The position numbers and the translations under genes are program-made. The notes beneath the pieces were generated by a model. That model searched no databases. It was not told where the DNA came from and worked only from the letters and a program-made list of their open reading frames with translations. This document shows positions 50,401-50,988 of a stretch of 64,000 nt of DNA, in pieces. The DNA is from Bradyrhizobium sp. AZCC 1719 (GTDB taxonomy: Bacteria; Pseudomonadota; Alphaproteobacteria; Rhizobiales; Xanthobacteraceae), in the NCBI RefSeq assembly GCF_036924525.1, contig NZ_JAZHRU010000001.1:496001-560000 (forward strand). Direction: 5' to 3'. Each line of letters opens with the position of its first letter. Positions within the stretch are counted from its first letter, which is position 1.

Positions 50401-50988
50401 GGCGAAGACGCCGAGTATCCCGACGTCTCGCCGCGCGACGCGCAGGCCTTGCGGGAATGGAAGGCGCTTGCCGAAGGCCATAAGCCGGTCGATGCAGCCG
50501 TAGCGGCTGCCAAGCCTGTCGCGTTGGTCGAGAAGCAACACGTGGAGCAAGAGCAGCAATCAAAGGAAACGCCCGGGCAAGCCAGTTCGGGAGATGTGCC
50601 GGCTGCCAGGCCAGACAAGAAGGTCAGGGCCAAGAAGACTTTGGAAAGCGCGCAGGCTGAGGGAGCCGAAAGACCCGTCAAGGCCAAGAAAGTCGCAGCG
50701 ACCAAGAAGGCCGTCGAAGCCGAGAAAGCCATTGAAGCCGAAGCCGAGAAGCCCAAAGCCAAAAAGGCCAAGGCTAAGGCTAAGGCTAAGAAGGCCAAGA
50801 AAGCCATCGCCAAGAAAGCCAAGGCCAAGAAGGCTGCCAAATCCAAAAAAGCTGCTTCGGTAACGAAGAGGGCAAAAAAGGGAGCTAAGAAGAAAGCGGT
50901 AAAGAAGACCGGCAAGAAAAAGACTGCCAAGAAGACCGGAAGAAAGTCTGCGACCGCGTCGAAGAAGAAAAAGAAGAAGGCGAGATAA
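47485..50988 (+). CDS. ileS: Isoleucyl-tRNA synthetase with a long lysine-rich C-terminal tail
   Basis: A 1167-residue class Ia synthetase. HIGH is at 74-77 (NIHIGHALNK) and KMSKS at 668-672; editing-domain blocks include TTTPWTLPGNRAIS. The normal enzyme ends near residue 1001 (ALREWKALAEGHK), a usual length for Bradyrhizobium. It is followed by about 166 extra residues; from about 1045 these are almost only Lys, Ala, Thr and Gly (KAKKAKAKAKAKKAKKA and similar), like histone H1 or AlgP tails. The zinc-binding cysteines are only partly kept (CARSW). ATG 47485 has a weak ribosome site. lspA begins directly after the stop. Confidence 0.96.
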   Translation: MSQQPQKSDVSDYSKTLFLPQTEFPMRAGLPQREPEILKYWNEIDLYGKLRESAQGRAKFVLHDGPPYANGNIHIGHALNKILKDVVTKSQQMLGFDSNYVPGWDCHGLPIEWKIEEENYRSKGKPKPDFRDSTAMVAFRKECRAYATHWLNVQREEFKRLGIIGDWDHPYATMSYPAEAQIARELMKFAANGTLYRGSKPVMWSVVEKTALAEAEVEYEDYTSDMVWVKFPVTSPAHGALAEASVVIWTTTPWTLPGNRAISFSPKIAYGLYKVTDAPADNWAKTGDLLILADALAAEVFKQARVTAYEKVRDLPGDTLDAVECAHPLKGFSGGYEFTVPLMPGDHVTDDTGTGFVHTAPGHGREDFDVWTANARELDQRGINTAIPYTVDENGAFTDHAPGFTGRRVINDKGEKGDANEAVIKALVEAGKLLARGRLKHQYPHSWRSKKPVIFRNTPQWFIAMDKDIAMDGKMKPGDTLRARALHAISVTQWVPPAGQNRINGMIAGRPDWVISRQRAWGVPIAVFVREKGDGSAEILQDDIVNQRIVEAFMEEGADAWYMDGARERFLGERAGEDWNKIDDILDVWFDSGSTHAFVLEDRQNFPSLGNIVRKVDGGEDTVMYLEGSDQHRGWFHSSLLESSGTRGRAPYDVVLTHGFTLDENGRKMSKSLGNTVEPQKVMKDSGADILRLWVCATDYADDQRIGPEILKNTIETYRKLRNSIRWMLGTLHHFDPADTVAHSDMPELERLMLHELAKRATTVRLAYAEFDYKTVVATLAAFMNSELSAFYFDIRKDTLYCDPPSSVARKAALTAIDIICDAILRWLSPVLSFTTEEAWRMYKPDAEASVHLTLFPEGFDQFRDEKLAAKWETIRDVRRVVTGALEVERAAKNIGSSLEASPLVYVSDKNIFNTLLDIDLAEVCITSNAMVTNDDAPASAFSLADVPGVAVVVERAVGTKCARSWKILPTVGEDAEYPDVSPRDAQALREWKALAEGHKPVDAAVAAAKPVALVEKQHVEQEQQSKETPGQASSGDVPAARPDKKVRAKKTLESAQAEGAERPVKAKKVAATKKAVEAEKAIEAEAEKPKAKKAKAKAKAKKAKKAIAKKAKAKKAAKSKKAASVTKRAKKGAKKKAVKKTGKKKTAKKTGRKSATASKKKKKKAR

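Follow-up and report, generated by a model that had tools for sequence, protein, structure and literature searches.

A patchy lysine/alanine tail on the isoleucyl-tRNA synthetase of Bradyrhizobium, selected as protein and putatively RNA-related

Introduction

To our knowledge, basic and disordered extensions of aminoacyl-tRNA synthetases have mostly been told as a eukaryotic story. Human lysyl-tRNA synthetase (LysRS) carries such a disordered basic extension, its N-terminal RNA-interaction domain, with which it binds tRNA non-specifically (PMC6213541). Two bacterial proteins have tails of related make-up. The lysine repeats in the C-terminal domain of actinobacterial topoisomerase I (TopA) are histone H1-like, vary between lineages and stabilise the complex with DNA (PMC7398561), while AlgP contains a 154-residue region of KPAA repeats, belongs with PhaF through a common domain, and affects polyphosphate granules, which are altered when its C-terminus is removed (PMC9239181). 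Two NCBIfam families also enter the comparison: adenylate kinases of the PRK13808 type (NF010381, 335 positions), housekeeping enzymes with a Lys/Ala tail in the genus studied here, and valine--tRNA ligases of the PRK14900 type (NF011492, 1044 positions), which we take to have a Lys/Ala tail.

This article deals with a tail of this kind at the C-terminus of isoleucyl-tRNA synthetase (IleRS) in a stretch of 64,000 nucleotides, hereafter the window, from the genome of Bradyrhizobium sp. AZCC 1719 (the source genome). Like the LysRS domain, it is basic and lies beyond the conserved part of the enzyme, but it is bacterial, C-terminal and strongly Lys/Ala-rich. With the topoisomerase I domain it shares an H1-like, lysine-rich and lineage-variable character; that tail acts on DNA, unlike the reading proposed below for IleRS. 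The AlgP/PhaF domain is alike in histone H1-like composition, comparable length and strong positive charge, but its KPAA repeats have no counterpart in the IleRS tail. In the titles and opening lines of abstracts of the open-access literature, no description of a tail like this on IleRS or methionyl-tRNA synthetase (MetRS) from bacteria was found, nor was the word lysine-rich in the available part of a synthetase review (PMC7373986); the possibility, raised in the preliminary description of this DNA, of a long-known feature thus found no match there.

Architecture of the extended IleRS

The enzyme and its extension are made up as follows.

47485..50988, + strand: ileS, isoleucyl-tRNA synthetase, ATG to TAA, 1167 residues with the tail
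47485..50460, + strand: IleRS body, residues 1-992, last residues PRDAQALREW
50473..50751, + strand: tail linker, residues 997-1089, 93 residues of mixed charge
50752..50985, + strand: Lys/Ala block, residues 1090-1167; of its 78 residues 38 are Lys and 3 Arg, and none is Asp or Glu

The identity of the frame is given by its match to TIGR00392 (residues 23-901, 789.5 bits, above the cut-off of 621.4), and both the class I catalytic and the anticodon-binding domains are present. The N-termini of relatives are comparable to that of the window's enzyme (MSQQPQ, MSQNPQ, MSEKPQ, etc.), and relatives without a tail stop about seven residues past the end of the body, typically with KALGVSV. The extra part amounts to about 171 residues (about 997-1167; nucleotides 50473-50985). 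An in-frame, histone H1-like lysine tail on IleRS, as first described, is therefore confirmed; the almost pure block of about 120 residues exists as a Lys/Ala block, but it is 78 residues long and is preceded by the mixed linker. It is this block that forms a basic segment outside the conserved enzyme.

Short tandem repeats occur within the tail. Neither Pfam nor NCBIfam gave a significant match to it, and the KPAA repeat is absent from its sequence. The sole NCBIfam match, to positions 902-1042 of the PRK14900-type valine--tRNA ligase model, has an E value of 8, is not significant and concerns a different synthetase; that model may end in a composition similar to that of the IleRS tail. In an AlphaFold (AF2) model that is poor as a whole (mean pLDDT 45.7; 21-row alignment), the tail has a pLDDT of 22-25 and no secondary structure.

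Two further ideas about the tail were set aside. Used as a query against the source genome, the tail recovered only itself among the 150 of 298 first-look candidates that were scored; no sequence relation to a same-genome paralogue was found, including the free-standing Lys/Ala open reading frames (ORFs) mentioned below. A programmed -1 frameshift at the in-frame heptamer AAAAAAG (A AAA AAG, 50874-50880) would lead into a frame that ends after two codons, and the heptamer is not positionally conserved, being absent from four of the other nine complete tails and placed elsewhere in the other five.

Distribution of the tail

Relatives of the locus were taken as the best 80 of at least 591, ranked by likeness and not a random sample. 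Ten of these 80 have a tail behind ileS (L005-L011, L072, L043 and L060, the last interrupted by a contig end), among them loci of Bradyrhizobium lablabi, valentinum and murdochi. Because it recurs in frame in these loci and in further genomes, the tail is not an assembly error, and a frameshift or misassembly just before it, which had been named as the finding that would undo the case, is ruled out. In a tree of 80 bodies (the window and 79 loci), nine tailed rows with the window form one clade (SH-aLRT 100), with L043 and L060 placed apart from the main tailed clade; L084, whose ileS-lspA junction is tail-less, was excluded from this tree.

A search with the tail alone found 25 proteins among 7988 scored, all with class I synthetase domains, and those bearing a name are all isoleucyl-tRNA synthetases. 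A second search started from L043, and the best 120 of its 2070 matches were kept; since the query spanned the end of the body too, most of these are tail-less. Altogether, 127 proteins including the window's divide into 48 with tails of more than 100 residues, 5 with short tails (27-51 residues) and 74 with none. One protein (P0012) seems to leave the frame within the tail and another (P0013) stops early; in these two and in the short tails, either genuine decay or errors in the sequence may be at work. From a FastTree analysis 23 of 126 proteins were left out for their short bodies or short tails, and P0012 and P0013 were entered as tailed; the resulting tree holds 183 bodies, 48 of them tailed, and requires 12 gains or losses, at least nine of them on well-supported branches. 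Repeated gain, repeated loss and recombination at the ileS-lspA junction may all account for these changes and are alike compatible with the tree. A tail query from a divergent row (P0030) returned only itself, so that by sequence the tails were followed no further than this lineage.

An even draw of 98 genomes of the genus, 92 of them with a match, complements this picture. IleRS open frames are 1139-1278 residues long in 16 of the 92, source genome included, and at most 1070 in the other 76, one of which (G087) is cut before the C-terminus and is uninformative. Wherever sequences were read, a tail was present in 4 of 4 long frames and in none of 36 frames of normal range. Five of the 16 long-frame genomes were read, counting the source genome, and the remaining 11 were called from frame length alone. 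One of the four tailed long frames (L310) ends inside the linker, before any Lys block, and the tail of L316 is identical to that of L008, probably from the same genome. Outside the genus, 12 genomes of the same order contributed ten whole IleRS frames of 988-1062 residues, one split frame (G020) and one of 1178 residues without a C-terminal tail, from another family (G019:C4, L166). This last enzyme has surplus residues at its N-terminus, and gaps separate its model pieces. The range of a tblastn match suggested a remnant tail behind the stop codon of L036, but by eye the gap contains no Lys-rich run.

The IleRS tail is thus patchy, common to the nearest clade and absent from most of the genus, which answers in both directions the earlier question of whether all close relatives share it. 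Being absent from most of the genus, it is not required for charging.

A degenerate zinc knuckle

A further peculiarity of the enzyme lies at the end of the body.

50365..50460, + strand: degenerate zinc knuckle at the C-terminal end of the body, KCARS...SPRD, with a single Cys of four as judged against PDB 1ffy and 8c9e

The C-terminal cysteines of IleRS bind zinc and help in tRNA recognition. In the alignment, the KCxRC...CxRC of 1ffy, which we take to be the Staphylococcus aureus IleRS structure, and of 8c9e corresponds to KCARS...SPRD in the window, where a single cysteine remains of the four ligands of a knuckle (CxxC...CxxC). The tail perhaps makes up for this loss. All 80 bodies (the window and 79 loci), tailed or tail-less, have KCARSW, and since the loss is common to tail-less enzymes, such compensation would not be specific to the tail.

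The junction with lspA

Immediately downstream lies lspA, with these signals.

50974..50980, + strand: AAGAAGG in the final Lys codons, candidate lspA ribosome-binding site
50989..51507, + strand: lspA (signal peptidase II), first candidate start GTG, adjoining the ileS stop codon
51010, + strand: second candidate lspA start, GTG, with AAGGA at 50998-51002

The reported overlap of the tail with the translation signals of lspA is borne out by comparison. All ten complete tailed loci have GTG or TTG immediately after the ileS stop and share the terminal codons AAG-GC(G/C)-AGA-TAA; the tail extends right up to lspA in them, and among 56 diverse tails 47 end in KAR. Three of the ten loci (L006, L011 and L043) have lost the older start 21 bases further on, and there lspA therefore most likely begins right after the ileS stop. 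The other seven retain both starts, the second having the stronger predicted ribosome site in six, so the adjoining start may not be the sole one.

Could the tail then exist mainly for the sake of lspA, its final Lys codons providing the ribosome site and its Lys-rich decoding coupling or slowing translation into the next gene? The adjoining start codon, the invariant terminal codons and the frequent KAR end would all suit such a service. We nevertheless consider it very improbable: a ribosome site requires about ten bases, not 500; the second start has the stronger predicted site in 6 of the 10 loci; and tail-less relatives manage with ileS and lspA adjacent, overlapping or gapped. In many of the latter (L012, L014-L016, L019-L023, L025 and others), the gap was seen by eye to hold REP-like inverted repeats.

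Selection on the tail as protein

The ten complete tails compared are 167-189 residues long and drift rapidly in sequence. All the same, gaps among them are multiples of three at 25 of 25 distinct positions, and their net charge stays between +33 and +45. The dN/dS ratio is 0.26-0.57 in the tail over 45 pairs and 0.05-0.17 in the body, pairs with L043 being near saturation. Purines occupy 36-49% of the four-fold third positions in the tail and 40-45% of those in the body. Given the in-frame gaps, the lack of third-position purine bias, the low dN/dS and the kept charge, what is conserved is therefore the protein. Selection on a purine-rich RNA instead was rejected on the same ground: four-fold third positions match those of the body, so that the richness of the strand in purines simply follows from its Lys codons.

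Arginine codons are consistent with selection on the protein. AGG and AGA are one step from Lys codons. With the last codon left aside, the tails use AGG 36 times, AGA 20 times and CGN 9 times (AGG/AGA 56 of 65), whereas five frames of the window use CGN 128 times, AGG 4 times and AGA never (4 of 132). The simplest reading would be that tail arginines arose from Lys codons, in a Lys-to-Arg exchange that keeps the charge. As far as such comparisons reach, the tail is translated and under selection for its Lys/Ala composition and positive charge.

The opposite view would be that of a tolerated low-complexity run, grown by slippage from intergenic DNA and doing little, in which selection merely removes stops and preserves solubility. 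The patchy presence with its at least nine changes, the rapid change, the short tandem repeats, the broken P0012 and P0013 and the five proteins of 127 with short tails (27-51 residues) are what such a run might produce. It would, however, hardly explain why the frame is kept at 25 of 25 gap positions, why dN/dS is well below 1, or why like tails occur on MetRS wherever it was read (7 of 7 loci) and on adenylate kinase in 17 of 19 genomes of the genus (see below). It also fits poorly with a neutral simulation, simple in design and started from the window's tail as ancestor. After 0.3 changes per site, 1% of the simulated copies were free of stops and 4% had a charge of +33 or higher; the real tails have kept their charge far better. 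We regard the tolerated run as unlikely.

Similar tails on MetRS and adenylate kinase

How unusual the tail is within its own genome was gauged from the window and 120 stretches of 20 kb each, in all 2.464 Mb of 7.2 Mb (about 34% of the genome), taking stop-to-stop frames of at least 60 residues (n=22,607) and a threshold, chosen for this analysis, of 15 Lys per 50 residues. Five frames of the 22,607 in this scanned part reach it: a free-standing Lys/Ala ORF, the IleRS tail, which is second richest, the N-terminus of MetRS, a SET-domain protein and a frame of 107 residues. The two Lys-richest enzymes of the scanned third are thus both tRNA synthetases. The SET-domain protein (L265:10551-11255, G000 about 4105.5 kb; Pfam SET, E 9e-27) is Lys-rich in its C-terminal part; it may be a lysine methyltransferase, encoded in a genome where Lys-rich tails occur. 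Free-standing Lys/Ala ORFs lie in L187 (minus strand, G000 about 595.6 kb), L088 and L092; one has 119 residues and is histone H1-like in type, and two have about 20-30.

The other two tailed enzymes are located in the source genome as follows.

G000:C1:5457399-5458829 (L169, L295): MetRS with N-terminal extension
G000:C1:4482994-4483873 (L096, L097): adenylate kinase, flanked by secY and rpsM as judged by eye

The Lys/Ala extension of MetRS is N-terminal, is preceded by an AAAGGA site and measures 133-165 residues, with a net charge of +38 to +51, in each of the seven loci read, those of the source genome and six others of the genus (L158-L163); in the source genome the Pfam catalytic domain starts at residue 139. 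The IleRS tail is absent from the six other genomes, and the MetRS and IleRS tails therefore come and go separately.

Adenylate kinase was reached through a non-significant NCBIfam match (E 0.19) of a Lys/Ala ORF. Its Lys/Ala tail was found in 17 of 19 genomes of the genus, source genome included, over the cut-off of NF010381, and all 17 were read to end in KRAKR or, once, KRAKA; the gene of G016 is split over contigs. In other families, none of the nine loci read out of 11 has such a tail. In the source genome the kinase frame stops early and the tail is encoded in a different frame, through a real or an assembly frameshift. The adenylate kinase tail is nearly fixed in the genus sample, whereas that of IleRS is patchy, and the likeness lies in the kind of tail. 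Apparent valyl-tRNA synthetase frames of the genus are somewhat longer than most of those in other families (957-1013 against 795-987, with one of 679), and leucyl-tRNA synthetase-like frames are of similar length in both.

A shared purpose is suggested, since the two Lys-richest enzymes are synthetases and adenylate kinase has a tail too. The evidence suggests that the tails on IleRS, MetRS and adenylate kinase are a home-grown means of keeping enzymes near RNA, and the IleRS tail is read here as one case of a Bradyrhizobium habit, placed at the front of MetRS and at the rear of adenylate kinase. It must be said against an RNA reading that those lysine-rich bacterial tails on which studies exist bind DNA or associate with polyphosphate granules. 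By analogy with what is proposed for AlgP and PhaF, the tail could instead tether IleRS to the nucleoid or to polyphosphate or PHA granules, perhaps in starvation, and its composition and charge do resemble those of AlgP/PhaF and of actinobacterial TopA. We doubt this; the tail has no significant match in Pfam or NCBIfam and no KPAA repeat, and its occurrence on two synthetases among three tailed enzymes points to RNA.

Proposed function

The suggestion that the tail anchors the enzyme to nucleic acid or raises its tRNA affinity, made when the tail was first noticed, remains our best guess. In the form that we prefer, and to which we give an even chance, the tail would be a flexible polycation that keeps IleRS near tRNA or ribosomal RNA. 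A translated and presumably disordered polycation would be appended to an otherwise normal IleRS; it would bind RNA through its charge, without sequence specificity; and the enzyme, kept near tRNA or on ribosomes, would meet tRNA-Ile more often and might capture it better. Human LysRS is the closest example that has been worked out (PMC6213541). Taken together, the comparisons portray a real, selected and lineage-specific feature with a putative RNA-related function.

A bolder idea, and in our estimation a distinctly improbable one, is that Bradyrhizobium possesses an electrostatic equivalent of the multi-synthetase complex of eukaryotes, in which AMP-making synthetases (MetRS, tailed in all 7 loci read, and IleRS in some clades) and the AMP-recycling adenylate kinase would gather by their like polycationic tails on ribosomal or transfer RNA. 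If this were true, charging and AMP recycling would proceed side by side, and each gain or loss of the IleRS tail would be a natural experiment on membership of the assembly. For the polycation that we prefer, the patchiness of the tail is valuable in itself: close bacterial relatives with and without it, on one and the same essential enzyme, offer matched natural pairs in which the role of such a tail can be tested.
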